From Parietichytrium sp. I65-24A (Eukaryota; Sar; Bigyra; Thraustochytrida; Thraustochytriidae), in the NCBI GenBank assembly GCA_012862575.1, contig BLSF01000005.1, positions 372,001 through 436,000 of the forward strand: 64,000 nt of DNA, read 5' to 3'. Shown here piece after piece: positions 11,542 through 54,613 of the stretch. The notes beneath the pieces were generated by a model that saw nothing but the letters and a program-made list of their open reading frames with translations, had not been told where the DNA came from and made no database searches. Both the position numbers and the translations under genes were made by a program. Position 1 is the stretch's first letter. The number at the start of each line of letters is the position of its first letter.

Positions 11542-14500
11542 TCAATGAAACTCGGTGTTTCGTCTCTCACGAGGCTTCGGCGACAGCAACTCCATCGTCT
11601 CAATTCCTTCACGGTCGCATCCTGCCGAAGAAGTACGCTTTGCACGCAGTGATGTAAGATGCTCTTGCACATCTTCAAAGGTCACGCTTCCTCGAACCGT
11701 TCTCCTGGAGAAGCCCTTATTGGTTACAATGGATTTGAACACTCTAGATCCAGCTCGGTCTCGAGACCCCTTAGTAGAAGGGCCTTTCAAAAGTGTGCTT
11801 AACCCGTCACCACTGCCGCTTTCATCCTCGTCTTCTTCGTCGCCCCGTTTGCCTGCCATCTCAAAGTTAAGATTCTCCGAAAGTAGGGCGCCTTTCATGG
11901 ATTGTACAGCAATACTTGATCGCCGCCGCTTTGTGCTACCTTCATCCGACGTCTCCGTAGCGACTGACTTGGCGTCAAAAGAGGAATCTACTGATTCGTC
12001 CACTGGCCCCGGAAGAGAGAGAAGGCTTGAGCCCATCTCTTCGGTAGTTTTTTCCAAGGCATTCATCCTGAAACTCGGTTTAGGGCTCAAGATGTCAAGA
12101 TTTGCAGATGTTCGCATCCTGATCGCTTGGCGTGCCTTCTCAATCAGACTCTCTGTTCCATCGTCCATGATTCTGCTGAGGCGAAAGGTTTCAAGCTCTC
12201 CAGCCGAAGATTTTATGACTGGTGCAGATTTATCAAACTTGCTGGACACAAAAGAAGTGTCCACAGAACCAAGGATATTGTCAATATGCTTGGATGAGAA
12301 TTTCGCAAGCGGAGAATCTTTCACGTTGCCAGAAATCTCGGCGACTTGTTTGTGTAGCTCTTTACTCTCTCTGACTGTCCTCTTGTCGCGTTGTACGATT
12401 TCTGAAAAGATTCCGATGTTGCGGTGCTCGGGAAACTCTAGCATGATTTTTTCAAAGTCGTCTTTCAAGATATAGTACAGCTCGCAATCCGTCACGCACT
12501 CGACGGTCTCTAAGCGCTCTCCATTCACCGAGTAAACGGTTTCCCCACCAAAGTGCTGTCCTGCACGAAGACGCTTCTTATTTCCCTTCTGAGATTTGCT
12601 TGTGATCATCACTTCGCCGGACAAGATGAAGTATATCTCCGTCCCGATTTCGCCTTCGCGATACACGTACTCCCCCTCGCTGGTGATCTGCGCGACCATT
12701 TTGCGCGTTATGTGGCGTTGAACGTGCACGTGGCATTTTCGCAGCCCGCGCACCTTTTGCACAATGTCGCCATGGATACAAAACGCTAGCTCAAGCTGCA
12801 ACGGAAGCGGGAGGTCAGATATGACTTCGCAAAGGTCTATTCCCTCAAAACGCTCCCAGCCATTCGTAAAGAAGTTGATGATCTCTCTTTGCAGATCAGA
12901 AGGAAGCTCTCGAAATTGCATGTAATCGATGAGCTTGCGGAGGCGATTCTTGAAGGAAATATTCCCCTTCGAGTCCATGTGGAGGTAGACGACTGCAATT
13001 GAACCGATTAACGCAGCAAGCATGCACGCACCAGTGAAGATCACCACCAATTCGAGGATACTTTCAAGCGGATTGTATGGGCGAATGTCGCCAAACCCGA
13101 CTGAACTCATTGTAGTGACAGTGAAATACAGTGCCCGAAGATAGCAGAACCATGGACTGACGTTGTCGTCTAAAATATTGTGCTGCCCGATAGTCGCATT
13201 GTAGGTCGCAAGCCCGTCCACGATTGCCCATGTACTGTGTGAAGTGGGCTCAACGTATCTATGAACAAAGAACCACATGCATGCAAATCCGTGATTCAGG
13301 AAGAAGGTCATAATGAAAAGTTTCACAGTCTGCGTCACAGCAGAGCTCAAGCGCGGAAAGATTTCATTAATGACTCGGTCGGTGACCCGAAAGTAGTAGT
13401 TCAACTTCAACATTCGGACGAGTCGGATGCATCGAAAGTAGGACAGCACCTCAATCTTTGTCCCACTGGAGCTCATGAAAGGAATGACAATGTCAAGCGG
13501 AAGAGAAGCCACAACATCTACCCAAAACCATGTCTCGAGATAATTTTGCATCAGCAAGCTTCGCTCGGTAATAAGACGACCAAATTTGTTGATCGCAAAA
13601 TATCTCATCCTTAGGACGATGTCCACAATAAAGAAAACGTCCATGAGGTACTCCGCAACAAACCAAAGCCACACCTGGGCAGGAATCTTTCCTTCGTGGA
13701 AAGGAAACTTTCCATCCACAAAGTACGAAATCCGGAACGGGATGCTGTAGACATAGAACAGAGTAAACACCAATGATAGAACCGACCATGTGCGATAAAA
13801 CTTGCTGTGTGGATTGAAAACGTGCCGGCGCGACCTTTTTGATCGGTTCTGCTGGGCACCAAAGTCGGAGAGGAGATTCTGTTCGGAATTTCTGCGCAAG
13901 TTCGGGTCCTTCATCGACAGCCGCGAGACAAGCTTCGATCCTGTCGCCCCTTTTGGCGAACCTGGGGCTGGTAATCCAACTCCCATGCTTGAGCCTCTCG
14001 AGGCGTGACCATTTCCAGTCGGAGAAATTGGGTTTACTTTGTACGCACTGCCTTTCGCGCTGCCTTTTAAGGATGTTGTCAGCACCGAGTCTTGGGGATC
14101 CAGTTTAGCCACTGTCGACCTCCTGCGAAAGGGAAAGTAGAATATAGACCCGAAGTTGCTCGAGCCAGTTTTCGAAAGTGCTTTTGGGAAGAACTTGAGT
14201 AGTTTCGATCCTTCCAATACAACCTCCATGTTGGTCTTGACGTTCTCGTTGCGCAAGAAGTTGTTGTCGCGAATCTCTTTAACGACCTTAAACATCATTT
14301 CACTCTCATGCGGAAAGCGCAAGAGCAACTCGTCAAGGTCGTCTTTAGAAAGAGAATACACCTCGGTAAACTCGATCGCCCGAACAGAGCAACTTCGGCG
14401 CTCGTTAAAGAAAATGGCCGTCTCTCCAAAGTACGACCCCGCGTCGAGGGTAGCAAGGACAATAACTTCTTCCTCTTGGCTCTTCTCCTTTCCTCTCATG

Positions 14501-17500
14501 ACCATGCTGGCACGCGTTGTGGAGCTCGAGCGTCTTGAAAAGTTGCTTTCACGAACGGTTCCCATACGGTGCAGATTGGGCTTGTACTTTCCAGGCGACG
14601 ATGCGGTAGACTGAACTGATTTAAGGCTTGCGTACAAATCGCCATCCTCCTCAACACTCTGGCGGCGTTCATGGCGCCACTCGCCGCGGAAAGCGACCAT
14701 CTGTACCCTGCCCTCCTCCAAAAAGTACATTTGAGTTCCCACGTCACCTTCGTATATAATGTAGTCCAGTGGGGAATAAACTTCCTGATGCAACTTCGAG
14801 GCGATTCCCTTTTGAAGAGCTTTATCGCAAAACTCGAAAAATGGCGTTCTTTCCACGAATCGTAGCTTGAGAAAATTGGACACCTCCGCGCGTAGAGTAG
14901 AGGGCATGTCTTCAACCAAGTGCGAATGCAACTCGCCCTTTTCCGTTTCCCAAAGATACTCCAAGTAATTGCGTGTGCGCTGCTGCAATTTGGGAGGGAT
15001 TCTATACATGTACAAAAACCGCTCAAATCGATCCATCTTTTCTCTGAATTTGGCAACACTGCCCTCCAGATTTGCTACCAAGTTTGCGATGTTTCCAATC
15101 ACCGCCGAATTGATAGTTACCCCGATGATGATTCCGACAAGAACGTACACGGTTCCAGCAAAGGTGACCGGAATGGTGTCGCCAATCACCACCGCCACGA
15201 GAGTAGGAAGCGCCCAGTTAAGAGCACGGAGGTAGCGATTGAACACAGTTCCGGCGTCCTGAGGCAGGAGGCCTACCTTTTGCTGGTGCTCTACCCACGT
15301 CCCGTTCCACATCGCCGTAACGTTTGCTGTGGTGCCACAACTTAGTTCAGAAGGCGAAAAGTTTGAACCCGGCTCGTAATAGAGATTGGAGAGCGGGCAG
15401 CTGTCGTTAAAGTAGAACACGTAGTCGTTCGTGACGCTATTCGGAAACGCGTTGCTGTAGTCGAGCTCCGATTCAATACGAGTGCCTCGTGCAATGAGGT
15501 AGAAAAAGCATGCGGCCCAGTGCGAAATGAGCATCACAGTGATAAACAGTTTGAATAGGCGATATGCCACGTCGTGGTCCTGAAACCGAGACACCTCAAA
15601 GAAGTTGTCCAAATTGCCCACGAGTCTGCCTAGCCTGGCAAGCAAAAGCATCTTTGTTATTCTCAGACATGCAGAAATCTCAAAAAGTAGAAAGTTGCCG
15701 GTCGCAAGGTATGCTGCGAAGAACAAAAGGTCAAATGGCATGCAGATGAGAGTGTCGCGCAATCTTCGGCCAGTTTTGTGGTAGTTTTCCCGAATATCCT
15801 CTCGGTCAGTGAAAACTTCACCTTCGTGAACAAAGCCAAAGTAGTTCATTCGAAGGTACACGTCCAACGTGACTACTCCATCAAAAATTAAGTCGAAAAC
15901 AAACAGTGTGAGCTCTGTGCTTCGACTCATTTCATCTCGTTCCAACACTCCGAAACGGAACGGAATGTTGAGAATGTTGTAGAAGATGATAATGAGATTT
16001 AAGAAGTCCCACGCCCGCCTTCGAGAGGAGTCTGGGTGTCTCCACGAGCTTTCAGCGATCGTTGACCGAACCGCGTAGTCATAACTTGTGATGCTGCTAA
16101 GCTTTGGATGCGCCTCCATATTAGAGGTGACAGCCATGTTTTTCTGCTTTTTCTGCTCCAGGGTCTGTTTAAGCTTGGACACTACCAGCTTTCTCTGCTG
16201 TGGAAATCCTTTGGTGACACGATCAAAGTCGTCTTTATTCAACACAAAGCAATCACAGTAGCCGATGGCAACCACGTTTGCGGTTCGCTTCTCCGCACCA
16301 AGAAGGCTTCCTTCGCCAAAGTAATCTCCTGGTGTGAGCACAGCATAGGTCATCTTTCCGTCCCTCGAGGTAACCCTAGTGGCACCACGTTCCAACAGGA
16401 ACATGTCCTGTCCGAGTTCGCCAGCAATAATGATATTGTCGTTTGGCAAGAATACTGACGGCTTGAGAACACTGAATAGATGGCGAAGCAGCTCGTCATC
16501 CACGCCTTGCAAGAATGTAATGTTGCGCATGATTTCTCCATTGATGTACGCTTGGACCTCCATACGTAGAGGGGCAGGCAAATCGTTTAAAATTCTTTGC
16601 TCGTCCACACCACGCTGACGCGACCATAAGTAGTCGTAATAACGGCGAATCCGCACTTGCAGGGCTCGGGGGAATTGTTTGGTGACCATGTACTGATTAA
16701 GCACGGTCAGCTTACGCTTAAAATCGGCCCTAGCAGTATTGAGACTTGAGATCAACGCTGCAATGGCACCAACGACCGCAGGATATCCGAGCCCACCAAA
16801 CAAGGTCACAAACGCGACATATCCCGACTCTCGAGTATTAATAGGTACAATGTCACCATATCCCACCGTTGTGACATCCACCAACACGAAATAAACAGCG
16901 CGGATATATGACCGAAACACAACCCCATCGCCATCCTCTGAGTACACATGTGGCCAGTTCTTTTCATCCATGCAAATCCAATCAAAGTCAGTACCCTTGC
17001 AATCTGCGTCTTGCGTCTTTTGATATTTAGAGACCTCTGCCATGAGAACCCATCCGCAGCCTACAAAATGCACGAAGATGATGACACCTGCAAAGATCTT
17101 GAAGATGCGATGAAGCGCATTACTTGCTGTGAATCGTCTGGTCGCAAGGTAGGTCTGCGCGACATTGTAATATCGCAAGAGGTAGCTCATGAGCAGCAAT
17201 TTGGGAAGGCGCAAAATGGGCAAAAGAGAAGGGTTTAAAGTGAAAGCTGCAACCAGGTCAAATGGGAAGAGGATCGCAATGTCGTAAATCCATGGTTCGC
17301 TACTTCGATAGTTGCGAAAAATGGCCACCCTGTCTCGAACTATAATGCCTTCCTGCACAAAGGCGAAGGAGGTGGCTCTGAAGATGACGTCGAGAAAGAA
17401 GAGAAAGTCAAGAATCCAGTCAAACGCAAAAAGAGAAACCTCCGCGTCGGCAGCTCTATTGAAAGTCAGAGACGCAAGGCGATAAGGGATCACGAATGTC

Positions 17501-19134
17501 ATGTACACAGCATGGACCAGCTGGATCAAGTTCCATATTTCTCTTGACCGCGACATTGGTTCAAACATCTCGCGCCAGCCCAGGTTCGCAGTATTGCTCG
17601 CATCAAGCCCAAAGAATTTCTTCACCTTCGCGCTACGCTTCGCGGCAGCATCTGCTGCGGTCTCCATCTCTACAAACTCTTCTTGCGACACGGTGTCTGA
17701 GAGGATCTCGATGAACTTTTCCTTTCGGAGCAGGAAAAATTCACAGTACGACTTTGCTCTCACCTCCGTTTCAGACGGCATGGAGAAAAAGAGGGAGCTC
17801 TCGCCAAAGAAACTCCTAGACTTGCCACTGTACGTCTGCTGAACGGCGCCAGTTGCTCCGATTACCTCTGCCTCTCCTCTTCTGAGCCAGAAGCACCCCT
17901 CTAAATTCTGGCCAGCGCGAACAACCGCATCCCCTGGAGACACGATGATCTGCTCCAGGGCCACGCAAATCGCGTTGACAATAGGCTCTCTTGCCTTCCT
18001 GAGGAAAGAGACTTGCGTTACGAGTTCCTTAGACTGGAGTCCAGCGACTTGCAGGCGGAGGGTCACGGGCAAGTCCCGGAGAAATTCGTTCTCGTCAACT
18101 CCCTTCAAACTAGCCCACATATACGAATAATACGCTCTGATGCGCTCTCTTAGGCTGCTGGAGAGGTGGCGGTACGCCATATACTTATTGAGGTTGTCCA
18201 TCTTCGAGTGGAACTCGTCTTCTGCTTGGTCCAGGTTGGTGACCATGTTTGTTAAATTTCCAATGACGCAGCAAGTCAGGTACATACCTGTGTACATCGT
18301 AAAGAGCGAGAACAGGGTCTCGTCAAATGACCCCTTCTTCGCCACGATGTCGCCAAAGCCGACGGTCACCATTGTTGTGATCGACCAATAGATTCCCCTG
18401 ATATAGATATGAGTGCTTCTCCGAAGCTCTTCGTCGGGGATGCTATCATTGTAGGACGAGAACTCTTTCATTTTATCGATCTGATCGTTCACCCAGCCGT
18501 CCGAACCGAGCTCAACAAAGCCGCACGCGAACCAGTGCGCTAATATGGTAAAAAGGGTCCAAAGGAAGATCATCCTGTGGAAACCTGCGTTCACGACGAG
18601 TCTCCGCCTCTCCAAACTGAGGAAGATTATGCGAAACTGCTGATTTAGCCGTACTAGCCGCAAGAGTTTAATTATACGGACCTTGTTCGCAACCACTCGC
18701 CCCGCCACCAACAATACCACGAGGTCAATTGGCAGCGCCGACATCACGTCCGTTAGCACCAGAAACCATCTCGACAACTTGGCCGCTGACGCCCTCGACT
18801 TGAGCTCCAGTAGGTCTCGCTTCTCCTTCGCCCTAATGGCGGGAGCGGACGGTTCCAACGCAAATTTGGCTTCGGGCATCACCAGCGCCGCCACGCGCGG
18901 TTCCTGGAACCTTCCGAATTTGTGCCTTACCGCTAGGTCCACCAAATACGCCGCGTCAAATACCACGTCCAGCAAGAAAAGCACAATGCTGGACCCTTCC
19001 ACGCTCTTGAGGTCGCTGGCCGAGCTGAAGAAGAGGCGGTATGGGATGATCACCGCGTTCCATAGCAGCACGCACAGCTGGAACGCCTCCCACGTCGTGC
19101 GTGTCAGCACCCTGGCCCACTTGGGGCGCCCCAT
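11542..19134 (-). CDS. Four-repeat cyclic-nucleotide-gated cation channel (CNGK-like), 2530 aa
   Basis: One intronless ORF carries four complete channel units in a single chain, each with six membrane segments, a pore loop, a C-linker and a cyclic-nucleotide-binding domain (CNBD). Pore filters: TVGFGD at 257-262, TVGYGD at 756-761, AVVIGD at 1314-1319 and SVGFGD at 2011-2016. The first, second and fourth fit K+ channels; the third has lost the usual signature. CNBDs lie at about 370-475, 875-980, 1430-1605 and 2125-2235. CNBD2 keeps FGE plus KRTANV and CNBD3 keeps FGE plus RRSCSV, so both retain the phosphate-binding Arg. CNBD1 (PSETEV) and CNBD4 (FGGE, ERLETV) are degenerate. CNBD3 also has a ~70-residue Ser/Arg-rich insert at about 1485-1555. 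S4 segments have spaced Arg/Lys (for example 151-180 and 1900-1920). The plan equals the CNGK channels of animal sperm. The protein should act in the plasma or flagellar membrane. The C-terminal ~290 residues are Ser/Lys-rich and disordered. Confidence 0.92.
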   Translation of the reverse strand: MGRPKWARVLTRTTWEAFQLCVLLWNAVIIPYRLFFSSASDLKSVEGSSIVLFLLDVVFDAAYLVDLAVRHKFGRFQEPRVAALVMPEAKFALEPSAPAIRAKEKRDLLELKSRASAAKLSRWFLVLTDVMSALPIDLVVLLVAGRVVANKVRIIKLLRLVRLNQQFRIIFLSLERRRLVVNAGFHRMIFLWTLFTILAHWFACGFVELGSDGWVNDQIDKMKEFSSYNDSIPDEELRRSTHIYIRGIYWSITTMVTVGFGDIVAKKGSFDETLFSLFTMYTGMYLTCCVIGNLTNMVTNLDQAEDEFHSKMDNLNKYMAYRHLSSSLRERIRAYYSYMWASLKGVDENEFLRDLPVTLRLQVAGLQSKELVTQVSFLRKAREPIVNAICVALEQIIVSPGDAVVRAGQNLEGCFWLRRGEAEVIGATGAVQQTYSGKSRSFFGESSLFFSMPSETEVRAKSYCEFFLLRKEKFIEILSDTVSQEEFVEMETAADAAAKRSAKVKKFFGLDASNTANLGWREMFEPMSRSREIWNLIQLVHAVYMTFVIPYRLASLTFNRAADAEVSLFAFDWILDFLFFLDVIFRATSFAFVQEGIIVRDRVAIFRNYRSSEPWIYDIAILFPFDLVAAFTLNPSLLPILRLPKLLLMSYLLRYYNVAQTYLATRRFTASNALHRIFKIFAGVIIFVHFVGCGWVLMAEVSKYQKTQDADCKGTDFDWICMDEKNWPHVYSEDGDGVVFRSYIRAVYFVLVDVTTVGYGDIVPINTRESGYVAFVTLFGGLGYPAVVGAIAALISSLNTARADFKRKLTVLNQYMVTKQFPRALQVRIRRYYDYLWSRQRGVDEQRILNDLPAPLRMEVQAYINGEIMRNITFLQGVDDELLRHLFSVLKPSVFLPNDNIIIAGELGQDMFLLERGATRVTSRDGKMTYAVLTPGDYFGEGSLLGAEKRTANVVAIGYCDCFVLNKDDFDRVTKGFPQQRKLVVSKLKQTLEQKKQKNMAVTSNMEAHPKLSSITSYDYAVRSTIAESSWRHPDSSRRRAWDFLNLIIIFYNILNIPFRFGVLERDEMSRSTELTLFVFDLIFDGVVTLDVYLRMNYFGFVHEGEVFTDREDIRENYHKTGRRLRDTLICMPFDLLFFAAYLATGNFLLFEISACLRITKMLLLARLGRLVGNLDNFFEVSRFQDHDVAYRLFKLFITVMLISHWAACFFYLIARGTRIESELDYSNAFPNSVTNDYVFYFNDSCPLSNLYYEPGSNFSPSELSCGTTANVTAMWNGTWVEHQQKVGLLPQDAGTVFNRYLRALNWALPTLVAVVIGDTIPVTFAGTVYVLVGIIIGVTINSAVIGNIANLVANLEGSVAKFREKMDRFERFLYMYRIPPKLQQRTRNYLEYLWETEKGELHSHLVEDMPSTLRAEVSNFLKLRFVERTPFFEFCDKALQKGIASKLHQEVYSPLDYIIYEGDVGTQMYFLEEGRVQMVAFRGEWRHERRQSVEEDGDLYASLKSVQSTASSPGKYKPNLHRMGTVRESNFSRRSSSTTRASMVMRGKEKSQEEEVIVLATLDAGSYFGETAIFFNERRSCSVRAIEFTEVYSLSKDDLDELLLRFPHESEMMFKVVKEIRDNNFLRNENVKTNMEVVLEGSKLLKFFPKALSKTGSSNFGSIFYFPFRRRSTVAKLDPQDSVLTTSLKGSAKGSAYKVNPISPTGNGHASRGSSMGVGLPAPGSPKGATGSKLVSRLSMKDPNLRRNSEQNLLSDFGAQQNRSKRSRRHVFNPHSKFYRTWSVLSLVFTLFYVYSIPFRISYFVDGKFPFHEGKIPAQVWLWFVAEYLMDVFFIVDIVLRMRYFAINKFGRLITERSLLMQNYLETWFWVDVVASLPLDIVIPFMSSSGTKIEVLSYFRCIRLVRMLKLNYYFRVTDRVINEIFPRLSSAVTQTVKLFIMTFFLNHGFACMWFFVHRYVEPTSHSTWAIVDGLATYNATIGQHNILDDNVSPWFCYLRALYFTVTTMSSVGFGDIRPYNPLESILELVVIFTGACMLAALIGSIAVVYLHMDSKGNISFKNRLRKLIDYMQFRELPSDLQREIINFFTNGWERFEGIDLCEVISDLPLPLQLELAFCIHGDIVQKVRGLRKCHVHVQRHITRKMVAQITSEGEYVYREGEIGTEIYFILSGEVMITSKSQKGNKKRLRAGQHFGGETVYSVNGERLETVECVTDCELYYILKDDFEKIMLEFPEHRNIGIFSEIVQRDKRTVRESKELHKQVAEISGNVKDSPLAKFSSKHIDNILGSVDTSFVSSKFDKSAPVIKSSAGELETFRLSRIMDDGTESLIEKARQAIRMRTSANLDILSPKPSFRMNALEKTTEEMGSSLLSLPGPVDESVDSSFDAKSVATETSDEGSTKRRRSSIAVQSMKGALLSENLNFEMAGKRGDEEDEDESGSGDGLSTLLKGPSTKGSRDRAGSRVFKSIVTNKGFSRRTVRGSVTFEDVQEHLTSLRAKRTSSAGCDREGIETMELLSPKPRERRNTEFH

Positions 19135-33286: not shown

Positions 33287-33652
33287 TAGCCAGTTTTGTT
33301 TTCTTTTTTCCTTTTTGCTTTGTGCCTGATTATTCCTGACCGTGAATTCTGCGGATCGGAATAAACAGCTTTTCTTTTTCCTTATTATCATCGTGTCGTT
33401 TGCGTGAAAATGTTTTCCATTTTTGTCACAAAAGTTCTTCAACAAAGAACAGAAGGATACCAAGACATGATATATTGTTTCTTTTCTTGACAGTATAAGA
33501 GCAAAAGTAACCTGGCATTGGGGCGGTCAAAGTGAACAAAACGCGGGAGAAAAGAGGAGGTCGTCCAGCGAATGCAAGGAGATAATAGGGGATATGAATT
33601 CGTTGGTTCTCAATCAGGAAGGTTTATATCAAGGCAAGTGAAGTCAGGTCGT
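33287..33652. other. Convergent 3' spacer
   Basis: About 370 bp between the stops of two converging genes. It is T-rich near 33295-33320 and 33370-33425, consistent with 3' UTRs. No gene is seen. Confidence 0.5.
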
Positions 33653-35428
33653 TCAAGCAATGGTACTCCTCTCAGTCTCCCATTCAAGTTTTTGCACATG
33701 TTGAGAAAGGCTGTCTTCAAGGACGCGGTCAAAGAGGGCAGCGGTGAGCGTGCAGTTATCGGTTCCGTAGGCTGCAGCTTGCCAGCCGATTGCAAGCTTG
33801 GCAATCTCACGGCCAGAGTAGCCCTTGGTGTGCGCAGCAACCTTGTCGATCATGTCCTGTTCTACACCCTCGATGGTGATACGAGTTGGGCCGGAGAACA
33901 TTCCACCAGTGTTTTCGTGAGCATTGACGACGTACTTGTTGAAGTAGTGGCGGAGCATGTGCTTGCGCTCGTCCTCGCCTGGAAGGTCGAACTTGACGAG
34001 CTCATCGGTACGATCATTGATTGCCCAATCCAACTGGCCAGGCTCATTAGTGGCATACACAAGCATAAAGTTGCTGCTCTCCGTTCCGGTGCGGTACAAG
34101 AATGCGTTGAGGGCGTTGCGCTGGTCTTCACTGATGTTCTGGTTGGTGCGCTTGCGCAAGAAGGCGTCCGCCTCATCCACAAAAACGAGGAGACCCCTCT
34201 TGCTAGTGCTTGCCCAGTCGAAGAGCTTGTGAATCTCAGTGACAGCGTCGCGGCCGAGCGGAGCGACATCACCACCGGTCATGATGGCAAAGTCCATGCC
34301 GGAGGATGCAGCCAGCTTTTTGGCGAAGAGAGTCTTACCGGTTCCAGGAGGTCCGTAAAAGAGCGCGTGGCGGTAAGGCGCCTTGTTCTTCTTGGTGTTT
34401 TTGGTCGATACGGCAAGGGTGGAAAGGCGGTCGCGGAGCTTGTTCTCCACGAAAACGCCGGAGAGAGCGCCATCGGTGGAGGTCATCATGCTCTTGAGCG
34501 ACTTGATGGGGCTGGTGAGCGCAATGCGAGAGGTCTCGCGAACGAGAGGTGGCTTACCGAGGCGGGACTCCACAAAGCGGCCGACAACGCCGGTGGAGAC
34601 GCGCGCTCCGTACACGCCCAGTGCGAGGGCGGTGAGAAGTCCGACTGTGGTGCCGAGCTTCTGCTTGTCCTCGAGGAACCCGTTGACGCCGTTACCGATC
34701 ATGGCGCCGGCCTCCTTGACGCTCTGCAGGACGGTGGTGCGGAGCTCGCGGGCCTCCATCTGGCTGCGCTGCATGCGAAGGTCCCAGTTCTTACGCTCCT
34801 GGTCAGCTTTGCCTTCCATCTCAGCCTGAACGCGGGACCGCTCCACGTCCTTGCGAAGCTTGGCCTCGTACTCTGCGGTTTGGCGCTTCATGGACTCTAC
34901 GCGCAGCTGAAAGTCCTCCTCGCGCTTGAGCTGCTGCTCCTGCATCTGACGCTGCGCATTGAGCTGCTCCTGGTGCTTCTTGCGAGACAGCTGGTCAGCG
35001 TAGTACGCCTGCTCCTGCTTGAGCTTGTGGTCCTGCTGCAGAGTCGTGCGACGCTCAGCTTCGATGGCGCGCGCGCGCTCCACGTCCATGGCCTTCTGCC
35101 GCACCTTGTTCTCCTCGATCTCCGCCATGGCTTGCTTGCTCCTGCGATCCTCCTTGAGCTTGGCAATGTTGATCGCCTCGGCAGCGTACTGCAGACCCTC
35201 CAGCTCCTTGGCGGCTGCCGCTGCGCGCTCCAGGGCCTTGGCATCAAAGCCGAACACATTGCCCTTCTCCGGCTCGCGGGCCTCGTCCTTGGGGTCGTCC
35301 TTGAACACCTTCTCTGCAGCGCCTTCCGCCCCACCCAGTCCGCCTAGCACAGGCACTGCGCTCGGCGCAGACCCTGACCCATCCTGCTTGTTCTCGGCGT
35401 CCTCCGCCTTCTTTCCGAACGGCCACAT
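33653..35428 (-). CDS. ATAD3: ATAD3 mitochondrial AAA+ ATPase, 591 aa
   Basis: A single exon with the complete ATAD3 plan: an N-terminal low-complexity stretch with FGFDAKALERAAAAAKEL at 59-76, a long charged coiled coil at ~65-225, a weak membrane segment near 258-280 (GTTVGLLTALALGVYG), then the AAA+ module. Walker A is GPPGTGKT at 359-366 and Walker B LLVFVDEADAF at 413-423, followed by a sensor region (VYATNEPGQLDWAINDR) and an arginine-rich sensor 2. In animals ATAD3 sits in the mitochondrial inner membrane with the ATPase facing the matrix and shapes cristae, nucleoids and contact sites. Length matches the family (~590). The opposite strand also has a long frame over the same bases, but it is an antisense shadow. 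Confidence 0.95.
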   Translation of the reverse strand: MWPFGKKAEDAENKQDGSGSAPSAVPVLGGLGGAEGAAEKVFKDDPKDEAREPEKGNVFGFDAKALERAAAAAKELEGLQYAAEAINIAKLKEDRRSKQAMAEIEENKVRQKAMDVERARAIEAERRTTLQQDHKLKQEQAYYADQLSRKKHQEQLNAQRQMQEQQLKREEDFQLRVESMKRQTAEYEAKLRKDVERSRVQAEMEGKADQERKNWDLRMQRSQMEARELRTTVLQSVKEAGAMIGNGVNGFLEDKQKLGTTVGLLTALALGVYGARVSTGVVGRFVESRLGKPPLVRETSRIALTSPIKSLKSMMTSTDGALSGVFVENKLRDRLSTLAVSTKNTKKNKAPYRHALFYGPPGTGKTLFAKKLAASSGMDFAIMTGGDVAPLGRDAVTEIHKLFDWASTSKRGLLVFVDEADAFLRKRTNQNISEDQRNALNAFLYRTGTESSNFMLVYATNEPGQLDWAINDRTDELVKFDLPGEDERKHMLRHYFNKYVVNAHENTGGMFSGPTRITIEGVEQDMIDKVAAHTKGYSGREIAKLAIGWQAAAYGTDNCTLTAALFDRVLEDSLSQHVQKLEWETERSTIA

Positions 35429-50986: not shown

Positions 50987-53900
50987 TCACAGATCTCTTA
51001 AGGAAGCAAGCTCATTGTTTCGCCCCAACGCGCGAGCGATCGCGGATTCTCCTTCATCCCCAATGTTATTCGATTCAAGCCTATCTTATGAAGCCACGAA
51101 CAAGTCGACCACAAAGCACAGAAAAGTTTAGCAAGTCCATAAATTTTCAAAGAAGGTTTTCATGGACAAAGGTACACGCACGTCAACGAGGTCATCGCAG
51201 GGTTAATTTCTAGCGCGCGACGGATCGCCGATGCTCCTTCGTCGCCAATTTTATTCTCTTGAAGACTATTTCGGAAATGTATAGCATGGCATCGTCAGCA
51301 ATAGAAGTGAAACACTCAACGTTGTCGAGAAACCAGTGATTACGGTGAACTTACGCCAACGACGTCAGCACAGCATTCTTCTCCAGTGTGCGACCGATAG
51401 CTAACGCTCCTTCATTGCTGATTTCATTCTCGTAAAGACTATTTCAACGTAATACGAGGTTGTCAGCACCAGAGCACATGAGTGCCTGACGGAGAAGTGA
51501 ACAGTTTAACGAAGCCTCTCCCATGTTCACACGTACTCCAAAGAAGTCAACGCAGTGCTTTTCTTCAGCGCACGGCCGATTGCCGATGCTCCTTCATCGC
51601 CAATTGCATTATTGCCGAGACTGTTTGGAGAAATAGTGAAGATACAGCTTTCGTGAGGCACCAGAAGTTTGTAAAAGCAAATATCAAAGTTACACGTACT
51701 TCAAAGAAGTCAACGTAGTGTTCCCTTCTAACGCGCAAATTACTGCCGATGCTCCCTTATTGCGAATTTCGTTCAAAGAAAGACTATTTTGAGAAAACAC
51801 ACGCCAATGTCAGCCAAATAGTACGAGAGTTTAGCTAAATACTAAAGTCTAAAGCGTACTCCACGACAGTCAACACCGTGTTTCTCTCCAACATGCGACC
51901 AATCGCCGTTGCTCCTCCATCGCCAATTGCATTTTTGCTTAGACTGTTCCATGAAGACCTGAGATCGTCAGTGGCAAATCTATAGTTTTCTTGACAATAT
52001 GAAGTGTCTTGATCAAGCCCGTGTCAGAGTGATACGTACTTCAAAAATGTGAGCGCCGTGTTCTTCTCCAATGGAAAACCAATTGCTGATACTCCTTCAT
52101 CACTAATACTATTCTGATGAAGACTATTCAATCAAGAAATCAATAGTACATCGAAGCGTGAGTATTCAACGGGCGAGAAAGTTTAGCGAGGAACTGATCT
52201 CGTCCTCTACAGCGGACGCACTCTAAATAACTCAGGGCAACATTCTTTTCTAACGCACGACCGATTGCTGACGCCCCATCAGAGCCAATGTTGTTGCACG
52301 AAAGACTGTTGCAAAAGACACGAACTAGTTAGGCAAAAAGCACAAGTTTGACTTCTTTGCGAAACCAGTGTCAAAGGCGTACGTACTTCAAGGAGGTAAG
52401 AGCATGATTCTTGTGCAGCATGCGGCCGATTGCTGATGCACCTTCAGCGCCAATCTCAGTGTATCGAAGGCTGTTTTTCGAAGACATCAAGTCAGCCAAC
52501 GAGCACAATGACTAACTTGGTAGGGTACAAACAATTTCGAGAAATCGGTGTTAAAGGCACACTTACTCCAGACATTTTAGCAAAGTGTTCTCCTCCAACG
52601 CTTGGCCGAGTGCTGATGCACCTTCCGCACCGATTCGACTCCAACAAAGACTACATTAAACAAACATAAAACCTTCAGCAATCAAATTCAAAAAAGGTGG
52701 CAAGTTTTAATGGTACGAAACCTGAATCAAAGTCTCACCTACTCCAACGAAGACAAAGTGCTCTTCTTCAACGCGTGACCAATCGCTGACGCTCCTTCAG
52801 CGCCAATCTTATTTGTTTGGAGACTGTTTGCACGACACAAAGAAATATCAGCAAACGAATACTTGTGGGTTGCAAATGTCCTGTGCCTTTTCACGTAGCC
52901 AGTCTCAAAACCAAACGCACTTTAAAGACGTCAGAGTAGTGTTCGTCTCCAACGCGCGACCAATTGCTGATGCTCCTTCGGCGCCAATTTCATTCACTTG
53001 AAGACTGAAAAAAGTCGCATCTGTCAACAAAAAGGTGTGACAAGCTGAAAACCATCTTCACAGAACCGGCCAAGAAGTCTCACTTACTTTAAAAGAGTAA
53101 GCGTGTTGTTCGTCTCAAATGCACGCCCAATTGATGTTGCCCCTTCGTCTCGAATCTCATTCCCGCAAAGACTGTTTCGAAAAAACATGATATTTAGCCA
53201 TAAAGTCAGAGAGCAAGGCACAAAATTCGTTGACTCAATCAATGCCAAAATCCCACGCACTTCAACCAAGTCATCACAGAGTTCTTTGCCAATGCGTGGC
53301 CAATCGCTGCTGCTCCTCCGTTACCAATTCGGTTCATACTAAGACTATCTCAAATGAAATGCGACATTGTCAGCCGGTAAGCACGAAAAAGTAATAGCTT
53401 AACCTGTGTCTAATGGCGCGTACTCTAAGAATGTCAACGCAGAGTTCTTCTCCAAGGCGCGGCCGATCGCTGACGCTCCATCTGCTCCAATCGCGTTAGA
53501 TTGAAGACTTTCCTCAGAGGTTTCAGAACATAGCAAACAGGCACGATACGGATTAGACAAAGGTACCAAATGTTTTCACATAGCAAGTTTAAAAGGCGCA
53601 CGTACTTCAAGAAAGTCAGCAAACTATTCTTCTCTAGCGCAAGACCAATCGCTGAAGCTCCCTCGGCGGCCATCGCATTGTAGCGAAGACTATTCGAAAA
53701 GAAAAGGAATCGTCAGCCACGAACAAGAGATGCAATACTCTGCAATCGCACAAATTAGTCGAACGTACTCCAACAGGGTTAGAGCCGTATTCTTTTCCAG
53801 CATCTGACCTATTGCTGATGCTCCTTTCGGGCCAATATTGTTACTTTGAAGACTGTTTCAAGAAGACATGAAATCTCAGTTAGAGAAACGAAAACGTTCG

Positions 53901-54613
53901 GTGAGGCGATGAAGTAAATATTTCAACGAGACCGACGTCAACCTGGCACGCACTTCAACGAAGTCAGCACAGTGTTCTTTTCTAACACGCAACCGATGGC
54001 TGACGCTCCTTCAGGGCCAATTGCATTACCCTCAAGACTGAAGAAAAAATTACACGAAATCGTCAGCCACATCGCAGGAGAAGATTTGGCAAGGAACTTG
54101 TGTTGGATCAATGTTAGACGGACTTTAAGAGGGTCAGCGCAGTGTTTTTCTCCAGTGCGCGACCAATCGTCAGTGCTCCTTCAGCTTTAATTTGATTATC
54201 GGGAAGACTAATTCAAAAAAGTACACAAGATCGTCAGCGCTAAAGTATGAGAGTTCAGCAATTTCCTTGTATATCTTCACGGCATCCAAGCTCTCCGAGC
54301 TCGAACACCTCTACAAATGCTCACAATATGCACGACTCACCCAAATTGTCGAAGATTTTTGTTTCCATTAAGCGCCACAGCAACCTTTCTCGCTCCTTTC
54401 TCCCTCAGCCTGCAGCCCCATTCGAACCTGGTTATGCACTAAACGGTCAGTCTCCACAGAAACACGCTGCGATTCATCACCAGCAGCTCACAAGCAGCTA
54501 ACTCACCACACGGCCTCTTCTTGGGCCATCGCCTTGAGCCCTTCCTCCAGCGACTTGACGCACCAAAACCTCTTCCTCACGCCAAATACCTCCTGCGCCT
54601 CGTACTTGGCCAT
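50987..54613 (-). CDS. LRR (ribonuclease-inhibitor/NLRC3 type) protein, 21 exons with one repeat per exon, 598 aa
   Basis: Exons in transcript order: 54507-54613, 54341-54427, 54124-54207, 53954-54037, 53769-53852, 53606-53689, 53424-53507, 53261-53344, 53088-53171, 52921-53004, 52743-52823, 52567-52650, 52387-52470, 52222-52305, 52040-52123, 51860-51943, 51700-51783, 51537-51620, 51355-51438, 51182-51265, 50987-51080 (stop TGA). They total 1797 nt, exactly 599 codons with stop. Seventeen are 84 nt and one is 81. All 20 introns are GT-AG, 76-133 bp and phase 2. Each 84-nt exon encodes one 28-residue repeat close to LxxNxIGxEGASAIGRALEKNTALTxLx. The start MAKYEAQEVFGV leads into a ~60-residue N-terminus with no recognised domain; there is no NACHT, kinase or membrane segment. 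The fold should be a horseshoe for protein binding, cytosolic. A receptor role is only inference. Confidence 0.88.
51182..54207 (-). repeat. Array of 18 single-repeat exons (84/81 nt) with ~90-bp introns
   Basis: The repeat period is ~165-185 bp: an 84-nt exon plus an intron of 76-101 bp. Exons are conserved in sequence while introns are not, apart from the GTACGT/GTGCGT-like donors and a CTGAC word (branch-point-like) ~23-33 nt before the acceptor, which I see in more than half of the introns. This is a gene-internal array, not a CRISPR array: the conserved parts are coding and diverged, and the intervening parts have variable length. Confidence 0.88.

Follow-up and report, generated by a model that had tools for sequence, protein, structure and literature searches.

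Leucine-rich repeat (LRR) genes with single repeats on single exons have been described from brown algae and from Tetrahymena. According to the part of the account cited here (PMC11378527, which refers to Zambounis et al. 2012 on these genes), brown algal LRR-ROCO genes carry tandem units of 72-bp phase-2 exons, each encoding one 23-aa LRR, with positive selection on the concave residues; the same kind of exon occurs in additional LRR-only genes. The same portion of that text gives LRR-ROC-COR as the sole ROCO form in brown algae; a TPR-ROCO-TIR is mentioned for the red alga Chondrus and an ANK-ROCO for oomycetes, and the other SAR species searched had no more than four ROCO copies. Single-repeat exons have been proposed to feed receptor diversity in brown algae, where alternative splicing of the LRR exons is a further feature of the system. 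As far as the cited portion of PMC6564038 goes, Tetrahymena has a large family of LRR exons of exactly 90 bp, also in phase 2, which are copied as exon/intron units; the arrays form older and younger groups, and a LINE-like element adjoins the young ones. For human NLRP3, an extract of PMC6642158 describes frame-keeping 171-bp exons with two repeats each, of the 28-29 aa ribonuclease inhibitor (RI) type.

We analysed a 64,000-nt stretch of DNA of Parietichytrium sp. I65-24A (the window), in which one LRR gene shows a comparable organization. As in brown algal LRR-ROCO genes, one LRR is encoded per exon in phase 2, both in this gene and in its sister units elsewhere in the genome, but the repeat is of the 28-aa RI type and occupies 84 nt, as against 23 aa and 72 nt. 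The Tetrahymena arrays likewise have phase-2 LRR exons of exact length, fall into older and younger groups and are copied as exon/intron units; the present units differ from them in length (84 vs 90 bp) and in occurring also upstream of ROC-COR-TIR domains. The features in common with vertebrate NLR LRR exons, to the extent that the NLRP3 extract covers them, are the RI-type repeats, frame-keeping exons and an exon border at one beta-strand position; here, however, each exon holds a single repeat in place of the 171-bp two-repeat exon, and a Pfam scan of the window protein revealed no NACHT domain, which is present in NLRs.

Structure of the window gene

The gene comprises the following elements (E3 to E20 as given by the exon readout):

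50987..54613, minus strand: complete LRR-only gene, 21 exons, 598 aa, defined by exon readout, repeat search and Pfam; old member of an exon-per-repeat family
54507..54613, minus strand: E1, 107 nt, first half of the conserved head (MAKYEAQEVFGVRKRFWCVKSLEEGLKAMAQEEAVW), whose consensus matches 79 genome sites
54341..54427, minus strand: E2, second half of the head / capping repeat; 87 nt from the acceptor that paralogues support, 69 nt from the downstream one
54124..54207, minus strand: E3, LRR 1, 84 nt
53954..54037, minus strand: E4, LRR 2, 84 nt
53769..53852, minus strand: E5, LRR 3, 84 nt
53606..53689, minus strand: E6, LRR 4, 84 nt
53424..53507, minus strand: E7, LRR 5, 84 nt
53261..53344, minus strand: E8, LRR 6, 84 nt
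53088..53171, minus strand: E9, LRR 7, 84 nt
52921..53004, minus strand: E10, LRR 8, 84 nt
52743..52823, minus strand: E11, LRR 9, 81 nt, one codon fewer
52567..52650, minus strand: E12, LRR 10, 84 nt
52387..52470, minus strand: E13, LRR 11, 84 nt
52222..52305, minus strand: E14, LRR 12, 84 nt
52040..52123, minus strand: E15, LRR 13, 84 nt
51860..51943, minus strand: E16, LRR 14, 84 nt
51700..51783, minus strand: E17, LRR 15, 84 nt
51537..51620, minus strand: E18, LRR 16, 84 nt
51355..51438, minus strand: E19, LRR 17, 84 nt
51182..51265, minus strand: E20, LRR 18, 84 nt
50987..51080, minus strand: E21, 94 nt, final LRR and stop codon; a stop-ended last unit is also found in several sister genes

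The splicing pattern was deduced from splice sites, reading frame and paralogue conservation. All 20 introns are predicted to be of the GT-AG type, in phase 2 and 76-133 nt long, and the retention of any of 19 of them would introduce an in-frame stop. The first-pass annotation had described 18 consecutive single-repeat exons of 84 nt (one of 81 nt) in a gene of 21 exons with 20 phase-2 introns. The exon readout agrees: E3-E20 have these lengths (E11 is the 81-nt exon), and the exon number and phases also hold after a correction of E2. In the sister genes (compared partly by eye), the acceptor of E2 lies 18 nt upstream of the one that would give the window gene its alternative 69-nt E2 and that precedes 54409. 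It is therefore likely that E2 spans 54341-54427, with an intron 1 of 79 nt, a protein of 598 aa and all phases equal to 2.

The gene contains 18 copies of a 94-nt unit, 17 of which show 63-78% identity to the reference copy, and this array is far above chance expectation. The repeat consensus, LxxNxIGxEGASAIGRALEKNTxLTxLN (28 residues, from 17 repeats of the gene), is of the RI type, and RI chains are among the solved relatives. Pfam assigned LRR_6 (PF13516; E=2.9e-97, 12 stretches) and otherwise other LRR models; the scan revealed neither ROC-COR nor TIR. The most similar pair of exons shares 76% identity and the introns average 58%, compared with 55% for shuffled introns. By its sequence, the window gene belongs to the old LRR-only members of its family and shows no recent exon turnover.

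The neighbours of the gene in the window include long single-ORF genes. The intronless 7.6-kb gene reported in the first pass is real (ORF 11542-19134, minus strand, 2530 aa) and contains four ion-channel and four cyclic-nucleotide-binding stretches, as in a fused multi-unit channel. Two ORFs of 591 aa, 33572-35347 (plus strand) and 33653-35428 (minus strand), are almost exactly antisense to each other; the plus-strand ORF gave no Pfam match.

Sister arrays in the genome

A search of the assembly (42.5 Mb, 172 contigs) with the whole protein gave 137 matches, including the window's own exons, and these comprised both uninterrupted LRR genes and interrupted arrays. Sister arrays, the presence of which had been named beforehand as a test of the diversification proposal, proved numerous. 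The consensus of the first head exon matched 79 genome sites (68 at E<=0.001) and that of E2 matched 46, while an AG-exon-GT scan of 21 stretches (20 with interrupted arrays, plus the window) detected 315 repeat units. The share of exactly 84-nt units (304/315) is biased toward this length, since the scan admitted only frame-keeping lengths of 78-90 nt, penalized those other than 84 and used a profile built from the window's repeats; the phase 2 of the sister units was likewise read by the scan itself. Introns of 60-130 nt account for 269 of 286 in the 21 stretches, and the donor GTACGT occurs at 212/315 units.

At 18 of the 29 array starts, a complete head of two exons could be parsed, as in the window gene. 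Further heads are visible by eye at some starts (e.g. L044, L050, L051), and other starts are headless or cut off (e.g. L043, L058.0, L052.0). The heads were read from upstream sequence after a tblastn search of the fetched loci with E1, E2 and E21 had given no match. Reading the array heads by eye revealed no hydrophobic run like a signal peptide. A search for elicitin as an oomycete marker gave no match, nor did any of its controls, so that it carries no information.

At least 19 of the 79 head matches face a contig end less than 2 kb away, vs 0.64 expected, and three within this distance face away from the end (again 0.64 expected); both tallies were made by hand from contigs of known length. 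The assembly thus tends to break within arrays, as expected of long near-repetitive ones, and the array lengths are therefore underestimates.

Some units are atypical or damaged (unit 1 of L041; units 3, 4 and 6 of L054, which corresponds to C12), the L048 ROCO, compared with that of L054, is out of frame at its P-loop, and the COR match on C4 contains a stop. Because of these lesions, part of the family appears to be decaying. Single introns of 328-344 nt, compared with the usual ~90-100 nt, were observed in L052.2, L053.0 and L053.1 after unit 4 and in L056 after unit 6; they contain no recognisable decayed exon.

Uninterrupted LRR_6 genes are present on C99, C1, C35, C50, C56 and C59; several show 28-aa spacing, and they are clustered on C99. 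We considered such intronless genes as processed copies or ancestors of the arrays and rejected both possibilities: 9 of 18 loci were scorable (two of them forming one ORF), with mean unit scores of 22-32, the other nine had no repeats at the thresholds used, and the printed N-termini are, by eye, unlike the array head. They apparently constitute a separate family.

Duplication of exon-intron units

Exon identity is 0.9 or higher in 93 unit pairs; in 78 of these the introns are at least 0.8 identical and in none are they below 0.6, against a mean of 0.55 for alignments of shuffled introns. At the sequence level, the duplicating unit in the young arrays is shown to be an exon together with its intron. 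Since the two are copied together, repeats would be gained with the frame intact, and the doubling of repeat exons without frame breakage that had been anticipated for the window gene is found in the young sister arrays.

Exact exon repeats, not always adjacent, occur inside single arrays at L039, L042, L043, L046, L049 and L056. In L042, L046 and L056 an identical exon is accompanied by an identical intron; the introns of the L039 pair are only 0.71 identical. Two tandem genes on C40, L052.1 and L052.2, share 93-98% identity over their first four units and have 13 and 16 detected units, respectively. Between stretches, 27 unit pairs at or above 0.9 have a similar neighbour in line (many of these are relatives on C40, C125 and C47) and 10 are isolated. 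From such patterns, block copying seems to dominate array growth, and single-unit exchange between arrays is possible. Copying of short tracts from other units was rejected: 6 of 30 differing patches recur in another unit, five of these at the same locus.

One 102-nt array intron has 183 matches in the genome, and among the matches listed every one except C36:170 belongs to a series or adjoins a unit or head. When the short flanks of the 21 stretches were compared, a ROC-COR frame was found to be common to L048 and L054, and shorter pieces, which partly adjoin or overlap other head copies, are common to related loci (L045, L052, L053 and L056; also L042, L046 and L055). As regards mobile elements in the flanks, nothing is common to most loci among the matches listed. 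Where Tetrahymena has its LINE-like element, these short flanks give, among the matches listed, pieces common to related loci only.

Diversification of the concave face

Repeat positions 2, 3, 5 and 26 show the greatest amino acid variety, and 8 and 28 come next. We defined the concave codons as 2, 3, 5 and 26 (first and second positions), a choice that follows the LRR consensus and was made after seeing the alignment. As a control for bias, unit pairs were picked on the basis of one flanking intron, and the other served for the comparison. At the 10% threshold, the concave codons differed by 0.308 vs 0.125 for the intron (39 pairs, p=1e-15), and in the reverse design by 0.362 vs 0.127 (38 pairs, p=7e-23); as pairs share genes, these p-values overstate the certainty. 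The concave/intron ratio was 2.3-2.8 over six settings. Core codons differed by 0.038 and 0.034 in the two designs and by 0.015-0.050 over the six settings. Synonymous third positions near the fast codons showed no clear rise over distant ones (p 0.17-1, six settings).

Earlier concave ratios of 5-6 were discarded as inflated, the pairs having been picked on the same intron that served as the yardstick. Local hypermutation of the fast codons was also rejected: in biased pairs pS had seemed raised, and third positions stood at 48/395 near the fast codons vs 65/743 far from them, but the unbiased design showed no difference between near and far (p 0.17-1). The change on the binding face is, as judged from these comparisons, amino-acid-directed rather than a product of local hypermutation. 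The rapid change at exposed positions that the first pass had named as a test is therefore present in young sister units, as in the brown algal genes, but is not measurable in the window gene itself.

Association with ROC-COR-TIR domains

The genome contains 11 COR-A matches, 10 of them over the cut-off. A TIR match lies shortly downstream on the same strand at nine of the 11 (none at C21 and C2), and at seven loci the listed Roc, COR and TIR matches share one open frame length. Array units, Roc, COR and TIR follow one another in this order on one strand at five loci: C12, C35 (279689), C107, C75 and C4. Of these, C107 and C75 were assigned by the order of their domains alone, and C4 has a single array unit listed upstream. 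Additional COR and TIR loci, on C81 (at the contig start), C73, C10 and C35 (near 278058), had no array units in these searches.

The best-read ROCO locus, C12, contains (i) a head, (ii) 14 detected units, of which three are atypical, and (iii) a final 844-aa exon with the last repeat followed by an intact-looking P-loop, ROC, COR, TIR and a stop; these parts were read as separate pieces. The TIR domain of C12 includes a 'CKELKEAL' stretch with a conserved, putatively catalytic glutamate. Its downstream frame (L054) is common to L048 on C35, where it corresponds to ROC-COR. Heads like the array heads were read at both of these fetched ROCO loci. The mean identity between ROCO and LRR-only heads is 37%, and that among LRR-only heads 51% (18 heads), so the ROCO heads form a separate branch. 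Among solved structures, LRRK2 chains match the L048 ROC-COR best, followed by chains named Rab family protein, which we take to be bacterial Roco. The L048 TIR has its best solved matches in bacterial TIR proteins (E 5.6e-5 to 0.12), of which one is named NAD(+) hydrolase.

LRR-only genes thus exist beside ROC-COR ones, as in brown algae; the differences are the TIR after ROC-COR and the lack of ROC-COR in the window gene as opposed to the five sister loci. Because ROC-COR and TIR domains are preceded by array units at these five loci, the brown algal link is, on present sequence evidence, stronger than the first-pass annotation had guessed. The suggested similarity to the brown algal diversifying system holds for the family, but not for the window gene, which is without recent exon duplication, ROC-COR or TIR. 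Among the titles and abstract openings listed from open-licence literature, none reports 84-nt LRR exon arrays or an LRR-ROC-COR-TIR with repeat exons. The family departs from these known relatives in the type of its repeat, in the length of its exons and in having a TIR end after repeat exons; TIR-ROCO as such is already known.

Function and origin of the family

The explanation that we favour, and consider probable, is that of a germline-diversifying, immune-receptor-like family, with the window gene as one of its old LRR-only members. An immune role is suggested by the TIR and ROC-COR parts and the fast-changing binding face. The family plan consists of a conserved two-exon head and an array of single-repeat 84-nt phase-2 exons, with no obvious signal peptide. 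In young members, as shown above, exon-intron units duplicate, after which the concave codons outpace the intron while the structural core is kept. Such proteins would recognise changing partners, most likely non-self. The TIR-ROCO members may be signalling receptors, and the LRR-only members, including the window gene, may serve as soluble binders, decoys or a repeat store. The function may also be a non-immune one that likewise drives fast surface change. A bolder version, which has a small but appreciable chance of being correct, is a protist immune repertoire of ~70-80 genes with a common head and interchangeable exons, a handful of them with ROC-COR-TIR; here germline exon copying and strong selection would be widened by RNA exon skipping or combining, giving more receptors than genes.

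Several other explanations were weighed against this one. The array introns are alike, and the 183 matches to one of them might point to parallel insertions of a mobile intron (introner) into an ancestral repeat gene that had no introns; but the listed matches lie (with the one exception, C36:170) in array-like series or beside units and heads, exon and intron identity rise together (78/93 pairs), and those intronless LRR genes whose repeats could be scored are distant (mean unit score 22-32), which makes this origin very improbable. Neutral copying of exons by unequal crossing-over, with most copies drifting or dying and no need for a recognition role, would account for the damaged units and out-of-frame copies, and the excess of contig ends within 2 kb of facing heads (at least 19/79, 0.64 expected) fits unstable repeats. 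Drift, however, predicts neither a core at 0.034-0.038 vs 0.125-0.127 for the intron nor concave codons changing 2.3-2.8 times as fast as the intron; neutral copying appears already disfavoured by this comparison, and we regard it as unlikely.

A fast concave face fits any arms race, and bacterial GALA LRR proteins are among the distant solved relatives, so that the family could instead serve attack, its LRR binders targeting host or prey proteins. The lack, by eye, of a signal-peptide-like hydrophobic run in the heads speaks against this, as does the presence of the same unit type upstream of ROC-COR-TIR, which resembles an intracellular signalling receptor; on balance attack is unlikely. Recognition of self and non-self, or of mating partners, among individuals of one species would likewise be served by many diverse members with a fast binding face, and non-self recognition by NLR-like proteins in fungi, to go by abstracts, offers a parallel; we give this alternative a modest chance.

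The favoured explanation, a germline-diversifying and probably immune-receptor-like family, would add a third single-repeat-exon LRR system, built on a different repeat, to those of brown algae and Tetrahymena. One genome here joins the copying of exon and intron, selection gauged against the intron of the same unit, and linkage to ROC-COR-TIR. Since the copied introns provide a built-in yardstick, the diversification of the repeats may be tested by sequencing a few strains.
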